This document shows, one piece after another, positions 44,501-48,689 of a DNA stretch of 64,000 bases (position 1 is the first letter of the stretch; every line of letters begins with the position of its first letter). Below the pieces are notes generated by a model. It made no database searches. It was not told the origin of the DNA and worked only from the letters and a program-made list of their open reading frames with translations. The stretch covers positions 56,581,898 to 56,645,897 of the forward strand of contig NC_092521.1 of the NCBI RefSeq assembly GCF_037038585.1, read 5' to 3'. Made by a program: the position numbers and the translations under genes. The stretch is from Patagioenas fasciata (Eukaryota; Chordata; Aves; Columbiformes; Columbidae).

Positions 44501-47500
44501 TTTGCTGTTACCAGCCCTTTGTTTGCTAGCCAGTAATCTACTCTGCTGTTACAAGTTCTTCTTGCATGCTGTGCTGTGCTTCTGTGCTCTTAGCACCCCT
44601 CCTAGACTTCATTGAAGTCGCTGAAAAATGTGTTGTTGTTCTGAAGAAGTAGGAATTAAGTATTGAGATTTAGCTCTGAGGCAAAGGTGGCAGATGACAC
44701 ATTATTACTTTTAATGACAATGGGAAAATCATTTGCCATGTGTTGTAAATCTTTTTTGTGTTACTCCAGGGGTGGGATGCTATTGAGTGGATAATTCAAA
44801 ATTCTGAAAGCGCTCTAAGCTAGCAGTTCTCCACATCTGCAGTTTGTACTAACTAGTGGTAATGCCAGCATTCTTCTTCTTGGTACAGCATTTCAGCTTC
44901 CTAGCAAATATGTGCATGGATTGTTGTCATGTGAATTTCATAAATTAACCTGCATGTATGTTTTATATACATTGCAAACAGGAATGGCAAACATGTTCAT
45001 TACACTGCAGTTGCAGACAGTGGGAGTAGGTCAGATCTGGACTGTGTCAGTTAACCTGTGCTTATGTCATTGCACAATCAACTTGCTGCAGCCATGTCTT
45101 GTGCCACTCAGTATTTCTTATGGCTTGAAAGTTGAACAATGACTGTGGATAACTAGGCATGTGGATGAGTCCCTCCACCAAGTGTTCCATCTGCTCCTAG
45201 TTTCTGTCATTTCAGTATGTAAAACTGGTACCCGAAAGAAATTAATAAATTCATTAGTGGCTGGAATTGGCATTATAAAAATGAAAGAGAATTGTATTTT
45301 TAGGATATAAAACTGATTTATTGAAACAGATTACCTAACAAGGGTAATCTTTTGCATAGTGAATTGTATTTGCTTTTCTTACGCCTGAGGAATATTGTTG
45401 CCCTCCTGTGAACTTCTGTGGGAATCTGTACAAAGCTTGAAGCTGTCAGAATGCCAGACTGTTTGTGTTTTTTGTTGTTCTTGTAGTTATATTCTTTTCG
45501 GTAGTGACGTGTCCCTTAAGTGATGTAACTATGAAAAAAATCTGACTTCAAGGTGGAGAGAACGGTGTGTACTTGCCTCTGTGATACCTCTGTGCAGATT
45601 GTTTTCCTTCCACTAGTCAGTGTAGCCTCTGTCATTCCTGTATTGGCTTATGCTTCAACTAATAAGATTCTTTTAAAAAAGAAAAAAATTAATTATGCTG
45701 CTTCTACTGGTAAAATTGTACAGGTTTTTAACAGTGCTTACTTTGAGATCAGTGTATGCCATGAGTTTGTTTTTACATTCTCATTCCACTAAGCTTTTAT
45801 GGCTGTTTTTCTGGAAAACATCAACTACAAAGGCTCAGCATTTATCAGTCACTTAAACTCTACCAACAAGTCTTCGTATGCAGCATTTGGTCTGTCAAAC
45901 ATGTCATACTGCTAACATATGCAATAAAGACTAATATAATATGCATGCTTGGTTATGAATGTGCTTGCTTAATGACTTACTACAGAATCTGTACAATATG
46001 AAACTTTATAGACCAATCCTCTGTCAGATTATTTTTTGGTAACTGGGTAGTCGTACAGTACTTGGAGGCTTTGCATCTGATTAAGATTTTATAACTTAAT
46101 TTCCTGTGCAGAATATTGCTGAAATCTTCCTTACTGTTACCACGAGTTTCTTCTTAGCTGCAAAGTATAGCACATAGTGTATGCAGGTCTAAGGAAATGT
46201 GCAGACCTGTGTAGTCTCAAAAGCTGAAGGAGATATCTTGGTGTTCCAGTTGAATGTCATGGATTTTTTTTTTCTTTGTTATTTATCTTATCAACAAATT
46301 CATCAACTAAAACACTATGACCTGCTTGCTTTGTAGTCAGGACCTGGAAAGAATCTCAGCAGTTTCCTGCTGAGCATTTTCTAGGTCAAAGGTGTTTGAC
46401 TTTCTGACAAGTCTTCATTGTGCAATTAGACAAATACAACATCTAAGATGTTACAGTCTTTAGTCAGTTCTCTGTGCCTGTGTCACTGAAGAGAGGACAT
46501 TTTAACCTGACTTTTAAATATCCAAATGCATGCTTACTGAAAGATGATCCTCCCCTCTCTCCCCCCACTTTGTTCCTTGCAGAGCACTCTACTCCATTAA
46601 TTCATGGCTTGTTACAACTTGTTGCTATGCAATAGCCTACTCCCGTCTGGGTGCTTTTAGCTGTGCTTTGCTGATGTTCCCAGATCTTGCTGAGGATGTA
46701 GAGATGATGGAAGGTATCACTTGCTGAAGCATGGCTGATTTGGTGCTCAAATGGAAGGAACACAGAAGTTAAATCATGCTCCTCTAAGGGCTTTTTTCAG
46801 CAACCCATACTTAAGTTGGACAGTTTAGATCATGCTTTCTTGAATATTGTCAGTATTTTTTTAAAGGCATGTCTTGAACTAAGTTAATTTAAAGATACTG
46901 GTTCTTGAGGTAATTCTGGGTAGGGCTGAATCTCCCTTTCTGAGCTCTGGCCAAGGCTTGAACGCTTTGTTATGATACGTGGATGGCTTTTCTCTGTGTA
47001 AGGACTGTCAGGGCAGACTCTGCATTAGTGTTTATGCTGTGAGTCCCTGTAAATATGAAAAACCGGAAGAGAAACAGCCAGCCCGTGACTGAACTTAGTG
47101 ACGATCTTGGGATAAGTGTGCTTTATTCGTAGTAAAACTTAGTTTCTTTTAAGAGGTTACACTGTACATCCTAGGACTGGGCTTTTAATATTGTTCCAGA
47201 GTAATGTTCCTAAACTCCAAAACCAATTCTTCAAGAATATGCATAGGTTTTGGTTTGACTTTTTTGTTTCATTTTGAGGTTTTCAGAGCTGTTTGTAGAG
47301 ATTCTTGTTCATGCTTAGCGATTCATAAAGGACAACAGCAGGTTCTGGACTCTTCAAGAGCATTTGGTTGGTTGGTTGGTTTCATTTTGTTGTTTGTTTT
47401 TTTTTTTTTTCTACTTTATCACCTATAATGCATGCAACAAAAATAGTACATCGGAGTTCAGAACACCTCTGTGTGTGGAGGGGTGTTCCCCCTCCCTTCC

Positions 47501-48689
47501 TCAGTCTCTGCAGAAGATTTGAACACTGGCACTGGCTCTCTTGAAGACTTAGGACTTTTGGGGGCTCAGACCCTTAATCTCCAGAACCCCTCTAGACTTG
47601 GCCAGTGCCACGTGGTTCCCAGTTACTGCTCTCCAGTGTTTGTATTTCTTATTCTTAGTGGGGTAATAGAGGTGAATATCTCTTGGCTTCTCTCTATGTG
47701 AAGAAGGGCCAGGTGTTTTTCTGGTTTGATTCCATCTGCTGGTTTTGGCAAAAGCTGTGATTCTGAGATTGTGGAGCTCTAAAATCTTGCACTTTTGTTT
47801 AGCTAGAGTGCTTCTCTTTATTGTCTTGGCTTTATTGTGTGGCTGCTTGCTCATCTTATGGTCACTTGGGAGCAGCTGCTGCAGCAGGGTTTTGACATGC
47901 TTATTTTATTGGAATCCCCAGTTCTTACTGAAGTATTGGCTGTCAGTGCCTAGCTGTGAGGCATTCGTGTTCTGAGAACTGAACAGAGAAAGACCATACC
48001 TTGACATAAAATTGAGAGACTGTAGTCTCTCAATTAAGCCTGTTTTATGTGCTGAAAAGTTGCTCTGCATGAATACAGAACTCGCTGTGAATCCCTCTGT
48101 GAATTCTCGCTAGAGATCAAATCAATTAGTTGCTACTTCAAAGAGCACTTGGAAGACTGTCTTTCTTTATTGTGGATCTTCTCAATAACTCTACCTATGT
48201 AACTTGGCTAATGAATCTGAGAACAGTATCTAGACTTTGCCATAAATGCCTTGGTGTTCTTCAGGTGGTGGGAGCAGCAAATATAAAACCAGCAATATGC
48301 TTACACAAGGGAACCTAACTAGTGGATTAGGCTTTTTGCCTAGGTGCGCTGCTGGGACCTCACACCAATATGGCATTTACTTCTTGCTTATGGGTTAAGC
48401 AAATGACTTGGCAGTGAAGTTTCAGTAAGAAGATGCTAACAAAGCACATCAAACCGTGCAGGTCACGGAATTAATTTTAAAACAAGTCTCATGTCTGACA
48501 GAGGAAAAAACTATAGAAACATGAACAGTGGTGGTGTATCTGTTCTGATTCTAAATTCCAGTATTTTCCTGGCAGGGTCGGGATGCCCTGGAGTGGGTGA
48601 TCAGCAAACTAAACACAGAATTGGAGGAGCTGAAGTCAACACGTGAGGGCATGAAACCAGCCATGGCAGCAGCGTCAACAGAAAAATAA
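38509..48689 (+). CDS. PRELID3A: PRELI domain-containing protein 3A (SLMO1), gene span with two alternative ends
   Basis: PRELI/MSF1-family lipid carrier. With TRIAP1 it moves phosphatidic acid across the mitochondrial intermembrane space for cardiolipin synthesis (family knowledge). Coding exons: 38509-38540, 41245-41413, 41832-41921, 42682-42752, 42847-42949, then either 44770-44823 or 48576-48689. All introns are GT-AG and phases match. With the first end the product has 172 residues, equal to human PRELID3A, ending [17 protein letters not shown]. With the second it has 192 residues and ends in a PRELID3B-like segment. The start [11 protein letters not shown] is invariant in the family. 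The divergent neighbour AFG3L2 is another mitochondrial gene. Confidence 0.96.
38541..41244 (+). other. PRELID3A: PRELID3A intron 1
   Basis: The first part, to about 39010, is CpG-rich and probably belongs to the promoter island. The remainder is AT-rich, with a MITE near its end at 41096-41177. No other element seen. Confidence 0.75.
41096..41177. mobile_element. mariner/Tc1-type MITE, 78 bp, with TA duplication
   Basis: Element at 41098-41175, flanked by TA at 41096-41097 and 41176-41177. Left end CAGGGTGTTTCAGAAAGATGG and right end CCATCTCTTTGAAACACCCTG are inverted repeats with mismatches only in the middle (18 of 21 bases pair). The TA duplication and CAGGGTG ends are typical of Tc1/mariner relatives. 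There is no coding capacity, so it is a non-autonomous copy. It ends 67 bases before exon 2. Confidence 0.8.
41245..41413 (+). CDS. PRELID3A: PRELID3A coding exon 2
   Basis: Residues 12-67: [56 protein letters not shown]. Core of the PRELI/MSF1 domain. Acceptor TTTTTACAG, donor GTACGC. Confidence 0.97.
41832..41921 (+). CDS. PRELID3A: PRELID3A coding exon 3
   Basis: Residues 68-97: [20 protein letters not shown] then [10 protein letters not shown]. Phase 0 on both sides; acceptor CACTTCTAG, donor GTGAGT. Confidence 0.97.
42682..42752 (+). CDS. PRELID3A: PRELID3A coding exon 4
   Basis: Residues 98-120: [20 protein letters not shown] then NPE, plus two bases of a Lys codon. Acceptor TTTCTAAG, donor GTAAGT. 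Confidence 0.97.
42847..42949 (+). CDS. PRELID3A: PRELID3A coding exon 5
   Basis: Residues 121-155: [35 protein letters not shown]. Ends in phase 0, so either following last exon stays in frame. Only 94 bases of intron separate it from exon 4. Confidence 0.97.
42950..44769 (+). other. PRELID3A: PRELID3A intron 5 (to proximal last exon)
   Basis: No coding exon, transposon or RNA gene recognised. Ends with TTACTCCAG before the proximal last exon. Confidence 0.65.
44770..44823 (+). CDS. PRELID3A: PRELID3A last exon, proximal (short, 3A-type end)
   Basis: Codes [17 protein letters not shown] and stops at TAG 44821-44823. It matches the human PRELID3A end GWAAIEWIIEHSESAVS, giving 172 residues. 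Acceptor TTACTCCAG. AATAAA hexamers follow at 45244-45249 and 45923-45928. Confidence 0.95.
   Translation, partial: GWDAIEWIIQNSESALS
44824..48575 (+). other. PRELID3A: 3' UTR of short PRELID3A form and intron to distal last exon
   Basis: Would serve as 3' UTR in short transcripts and as intron in long ones. Candidate poly(A) hexamers at 45244 and 45923. A T-rich run near 47397-47411. No gene or transposon recognised. Confidence 0.6.
48576..48689 (+). CDS. PRELID3A: PRELID3A alternative last exon, distal (long, 3B-type end)
   Basis: After a good acceptor (TTTTCCTGGCAG) it codes [37 protein letters not shown] and a TAA. It follows exon 5 in phase 0, giving 192 residues. It resembles the end of the paralogue PRELID3B ([17 protein letters not shown]...MAAAAFAEK, 194 residues in human), not that of human PRELID3A. 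It also aligns with the proximal last exon at its start (G-x-D-A-[IL]-E-W-[IV]-I), so the two are probably duplicated or jointly inherited alternative exons. Use in transcripts is inferred. Confidence 0.85.
   Translation, partial: GRDALEWVISKLNTELEELKSTREGMKPAMAAASTEK

Follow-up and report, generated by a model that had tools for sequence, protein, structure and literature searches.

A PRELID3A gene of Patagioenas fasciata carries two homologous, frame-compatible alternative last exons

The window analysed here is a stretch of 64,000 nucleotides (nt) from Patagioenas fasciata (assembly GCF_037038585.1, contig NC_092521.1, positions 56,581,898 to 56,645,897, forward strand), and it contains a gene for PRELID3A, a mitochondrial lipid carrier, in which a shared body is followed by two different last exons. 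A script-built gene model and direct reading of the sequence place the shared body in exons 1-5 (38509-42949), which are separated by GT-AG introns, join to 465 nt (155 codons) and end in phase 0. Downstream lie two terminal exons in the same phase, with separate acceptors and separate stop codons, as alternative last exons require (Table 1). The acceptor of the proximal exon reads ...gtgttactccag immediately before GGG, and that of the distal exon ...tattttcctggcag immediately before GGT; the pattern G-x-D-A-[IL]-E-W-[IV]-I is present in both exons. An earlier reading made from the sequence alone had described exon 5 as ending in phase 0 at 42949, followed by two exons with an acceptor and a stop of their own; when re-derived, its coordinates, phase and peptides were correct to the base, and the short and long products that it expected to differ in the C-terminal helix are predicted from the frames to be 172 and 192 residues long. 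Therefore, the two last exons are a real and well-formed pair within one PRELID3A gene. The pair is probably functional, and through it the gene could give its protein one of two ends, short or long. Splicing from the proximal exon to a further one would not join the tails, as translation would still end at the proximal stop; the two tails are thus mutually exclusive in the protein.

Table 1. Exons of PRELID3A and candidate polyadenylation motifs in the window (coding parts only for exon 1 and the two last exons)
Feature	Positions	Strand	Basis or remark
PRELID3A coding exon 1 (from ATG)	38509-38540	+	translation, donor gtgagg
PRELID3A exon 2	41245-41413	+	contains published TRIAP1-binding stretch P13-L39
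PRELID3A exon 3	41832-41921	+	gene model
PRELID3A exon 4	42682-42752	+	gene model
PRELID3A exon 5, phase-0 end, final exon common to both forms	42847-42949	+	gene model
Proximal (3A-type) last exon, coding part with stop	44770-44823	+	17 codons before the stop; product 172 residues
AATAAA, candidate polyadenylation signal, proximal form	45244-45249	+	motif only
AATAAA, candidate polyadenylation signal, proximal form	45923-45928	+	motif only
Distal (3B-type) last exon, coding part with stop	48576-48689	+	37 codons before the stop; product 192 residues
AATAAA overlapping the distal stop codon	48685-48690	+	motif only
ATTAAA, candidate polyadenylation signal, distal form	48859-48864	+	motif only

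Both predicted forms matched the Pfam PRELI family (PF04707) above its curated cut-off, with E values of 1.1e-54 for the long form and 2.5e-53 for the short one. The 155-residue body is of the 3A type, being identical to human PRELID3A at 140 positions and to human PRELID3B at 123. In the sequences of solved structures, GWAAIEWIIEHSESAVS is the end of human PRELID3A (4xzv, 8ag0), and human PRELID3B (6i4y) extends into a longer tail, which bears out the human endings given in the sequence-only reading (PRELID3A like the proximal exon, PRELID3B like the distal one). The proximal tail shares 13 of its 17 residues with human PRELID3A. The distal tail is closer to human PRELID3B than to human PRELID3A, with 19 of 34 aligned residues identical to the former (14 over the first 20), in a comparison that covers 35 residues of the human tail, short of its very end.

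The likelihood of such matches arising by chance was assessed with ungapped BLOSUM62 scores, using as controls the other five reading frames and 20 first-order Markov windows. With the human PRELID3B tail as query, the distal exon scored 84, compared to a best score of 33 in the other five frames (at the proximal exon) and to maxima of 31-42 in the Markov windows. With the human PRELID3A tail, the proximal exon scored 72, compared to 34 and 29-37, respectively. Both matches are far above the control scores, and therefore neither tail is a chance open frame.

When the two last exons were compared with each other, the first nine codons agreed in 6 of 9 residues and 19 of 27 nt, and past codon 9 the agreement fell to 1 of 8 residues and to 8 of the next 27 nt, as expected for old duplicates. 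In an alignment of five sequences (both forms, human PRELID3A, human PRELID3B and yeast Ups1), counted over Ups1 residues 156-168, the long tail shared 5 of 13 residues with Ups1 (R157, V163, I164, K166, L167) and the short tail 3 of 13 (I164, Q165, E168); the same count gave 6 of 13 for the human PRELID3B tail and 2 of 13 for that of PRELID3A. The long form also scored above the short one against Ups1 (4xhr; 66.4 versus 62.8 bits), PRELID1 (6i3y; 59.6 versus 56.1 bits) and the Pfam PRELI model (185 versus 180.6). As Ups1, PRELID1 and the Pfam model all slightly favour the long tail, it is more likely the distal exon that is ancestral, with the proximal exon as its diverged copy; the basis is modest, and the Q165 and E168 that Ups1 shares with the short tail weigh against this order. 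The sequence-only reading had spoken of a duplicated or ancestral pair; the homology held, and the agreement with Ups1 refines the rest to an ancestral distal and a derived proximal exon. It is improbable, in our view, that the pair is older than the split between PRELID3A and PRELID3B and that PRELID3B later lost its proximal exon. The marked divergence of the tails after column 9, with each still resembling the tail of one human paralog, would fit such an early origin, but this requires one loss more than a copy made within the PRELID3A line.

The splice sites were compared with consensus sequences. The donor of exon 5 (AAG/gtacat) matches 7 of the 9 positions of MAGGTRAGT and lacks the G at +5; it is not the weakest of the gene, as the donor of exon 2 matches only 5 of 9. 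A simple and rough acceptor score, built from base frequencies, was applied to the 446 AG sites between about 42960 and 49500, among which the proximal acceptor ranked 2nd and the distal one 14th.

The integrity of the distal exon was set against a neutral simulation with settings of our own choice (indel/substitution ratio 0.12, kappa 2, 5000 runs per distance). Frame, stop and acceptor AG were all kept free of indels in 582, 76, 11 and 1 of the 5000 runs at 0.1, 0.2, 0.3 and 0.4 substitutions per site, respectively, and in none at 0.5, 0.6 or 0.8; the median residue identity to the starting sequence was 0.54 at 0.3 and 0.41 at 0.5 substitutions per site. A long-abandoned exon should not look so intact; a recently abandoned one could.

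This leaves some room, though we judge it unlikely, for the distal exon being a relic, that is, an ancestral last exon that this lineage has ceased to use, or uses seldom, and that is yet to decay. Its acceptor scores 6.2 and is thereby the lowest of the six in the gene (9.7 for the proximal one, 7.1-11.1 for the four upstream ones), and transcripts might already end at the two AATAAA motifs that precede it, at 45244 and 45923. The constraint argument also leans on indels, because frame and stop survive far more often once these are ignored (2986, 1908, 1340, 931, 671, 546 and 361 of 5000 runs at 0.1, 0.2, 0.3, 0.4, 0.5, 0.6 and 0.8 substitutions per site); the 582 and 2986 surviving runs at the shortest distance, with indels counted and ignored, fit a relic. 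The human SLMO1 (PRELID3A) of the structural work was, moreover, the short 1-172 form (PMC4515122). Against a relic, no damage is seen in the 37 codons, the stop, the acceptor AG or the MAAA.. end, and the likeness to human PRELID3B still amounts to 19 of 34 residues. With indels counted, the simulation speaks against a loss that lies more than about 0.3 substitutions per site in the past.

The segment exchanged between the two forms begins at residue 156, inside helix alpha3. The long tail carries the basic residues R157, K166, K175, R178, K182 and K192, whereas the short tail has W157 and N166, contains no K or R at all and would offer less helix. In simulations of yeast Ups1, the contacts of alpha3 with the membrane were K140, R146, K154, M158, F162, K166 and R171; the Ups1-2E mutant (K140E/R146E) showed no transfer of phosphatidic acid (PA), and less total and less Mdm35-bound Ups1 was found on membranes with Ups1 mutants (PMC7447767). 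In structures of PRELI proteins, alpha3 and the omega loop take a range of positions around the entrance of the cavity (PMC6408443). In one study of the human proteins, the long-tailed SLMO2 (PRELID3B) was located in the intermembrane space and rescued fly slmo, whereas a fusion of the short-tailed SLMO1 to green fluorescent protein (GFP) stayed in the cytosol, outside mitochondria, and rescue by SLMO1 failed (PMC11649117).

The sequence-only reading had suggested that the exchange might alter the binding of TRIAP1. This idea is weak and was set aside as the main effect, because the TRIAP1 contacts of human SLMO1 in the literature (P13-L39, and also L49, L54 and Y77; PMC4515122) map to exons 2 and 3, which are common to both forms; the principal consequence of the swap is thus unlikely to be a change in TRIAP1 binding.

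The explanation that we favour, and hold to be rather probable, is that of a single PRELID3A gene with an ancestral distal and a derived proximal last exon, in which a choice of splicing and polyadenylation tunes membrane docking. The distal exon would be the counterpart of the last exon of PRELID3B, and the proximal one would have arisen by tandem copying, followed by divergence and the gain of an early stop. With a stop in each exon and candidate polyadenylation motifs close to both, choosing one or the other would yield a protein of either 172 or 192 residues. The exchanged part is the end of helix alpha3, which caps the lipid cavity together with the omega loop and which, in yeast Ups1, docks on acidic membranes. 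The long form, by keeping its basic residues, may dock and deliver phosphatidylserine like PRELID3B, and the short form may dock more weakly or sit elsewhere in the cell. The proposal that the terminal-exon switch tunes docking and perhaps localisation is based on the position of the swap inside alpha3, the membrane contacts of Ups1, the contrast in basic residues and the behaviour of SLMO1 and SLMO2. The sequence itself shows the anatomy, the frames and the homology of both tails; usage in RNA, regulation and function are inferred. A bolder version, which we regard as doubtful, would make PRELID3A in this lineage a dual lipid carrier that switches between a membrane-docking phosphatidylserine carrier of the intermembrane space, its long alpha3 bearing R157/K166, and a form with a short alpha3 that docks weakly or stays in the cytosol; human SLMO1 would then be the remainder left by exclusive use of the derived exon.

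Several observations weigh against a role of the swap in docking. Among the Ups1 contacts listed above that fall in the swapped part, K166 alone differs between the tails, and R157 is not listed. K166 was examined only within a quadruple mutant, none of the Ups1 mutations with the strongest effect falls in the swapped segment, and the Ups1 mutants had more free, non-complexed Ups1 on membranes (PMC7447767). The contrast between SLMO1 and SLMO2 is confounded by differences in their bodies and, for localisation, by the C-terminal GFP, and PRELID1, which is found at mitochondria, likewise failed to rescue fly slmo (PMC11649117). The short human SLMO1 forms a complex with TRIAP1 and transfers PA in vitro, although less than Ups1 (PMC4515122), and Ups2 truncated after W174 was active both in vivo and in vitro (PMC6408443), which argues for a modest effect of the swap. 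Helical hydrophobic moments did not separate the tails (shuffle fractions of 0.05 to 0.34 over 7 segments) and were dropped as a discriminator.

If both forms are made, it is also conceivable, though we give it little credence, that the tails are functionally equivalent and that the switch alters only the 3' untranslated region and the level of the message. The activity of tail-less Ups2 in yeast and in vitro (PMC6408443), the position of the TRIAP1 contacts in the shared exons and the capacity of the short human SLMO1 to bind TRIAP1 and transfer PA (PMC4515122) are all consistent with equivalence. However, it is not just the far end that changes, but also positions 157 and 166 within alpha3, and SLMO1 is unlike SLMO2 in where it localises and in its capacity to rescue, even if that comparison is confounded (PMC11649117).

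An origin of the distal exon from PRELID3B, by retrocopy or segmental insertion, would account for a tail more like human PRELID3B than PRELID3A but is very hard to credit. The homology begins exactly at the splice acceptor and in the right phase, and the frame upstream hits a stop after 7 codons without exon-5 sequence such as TISSNA, which a retrocopy should carry; a retrocopy is rejected on these grounds, and a segmental insertion that brought intron sequence with it is considered very improbable.

The exon pair described here is of a known kind, that of homologous alternative last exons. The exon 9 variants of tropomyosin are an example, in which duplicated terminal exons are used one at a time and change the C-terminal end; the PRELID3A pair, known from sequence, belongs to a different protein family. 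The distal exon encodes the same kind of long tail as human PRELID3B (GR.A.EWVI.KLN.E.EEL ... MAAA), but here that tail would join a 3A-type body, and as one of two choices. Body and short tail agree with human PRELID3A in the proportions given above; in contrast to the long form predicted here, no long-tail form is mentioned for the human protein in the parts of the open-licence PubMed Central (PMC) literature that were searched. No report of the exon pair was found in the portions consulted of that literature on PRELID3A/SLMO1 and its splicing, five tail peptides searched in the same collection gave no matches, and searches for work on duplicated terminal exons in general yielded nothing related; some vertebrate annotations may well include the long isoform already. 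A paper on exon usage in bovine SLMO1 reports an exon of 30 residues, which on our reading of its coordinates fits exon 3, so that the part consulted is silent on the last exons and the case was set aside (PMC7657496). A review on TDP-43 names PRELID3A among the altered genes, without specifying the event in the text examined (PMC13343711).

Within its family, PRELID3A is poorly understood, and the exon pair is relevant to the differing behaviour of PRELID3A and PRELID3B. Should PRELID3A with the ancestral long tail still be made in some vertebrates, that difference may reside in the last exon and not in the body. The gene also supplies two natural forms with which to study the role of the end of helix alpha3 in PRELI proteins.

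The long form was also used as query in one scan each of viral and of genome contigs. The scan of viral contigs gave no matches. In the other, a bacterial contig of Desulforhopalus vacuolatus (L001, 10001-10207) gave a weak match, perhaps due to chance, of 30% identity to residues 113-183 (E 5e-5, relative to the candidate stretches only).

Regarding the surroundings of the gene, we take the human gene order to be TUBB6-AFG3L2-PRELID3A-SPIRE1, and a beta-tubulin open reading frame (ORF) at 3175-4431 on the forward strand and AFG3L2 exons at about 14000-22200 on the reverse strand fit that order. An ORF at 60068-60349 on the reverse strand, convergent with PRELID3A, may be the C-terminus of SPIRE1, a label for which Pfam and PDB searches of this ORF gave no support. 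Open frames at 7497-7979, 20906-21490, 37318-37935 and 63531-63961 resemble fragments of CR1-type reverse transcriptase, and such CR1-like fragments make the bird origin supposed in the sequence-only reading plausible. In intron 1 of PRELID3A, an imperfect inverted repeat (41096-41177), with 36-nt arms that are 81% complementary, a 10-nt loop and the boundaries TACAGGGTGTTTC...GAAACACCCTGTA, looks like a small element of the miniature inverted-repeat transposable element (MITE) type.

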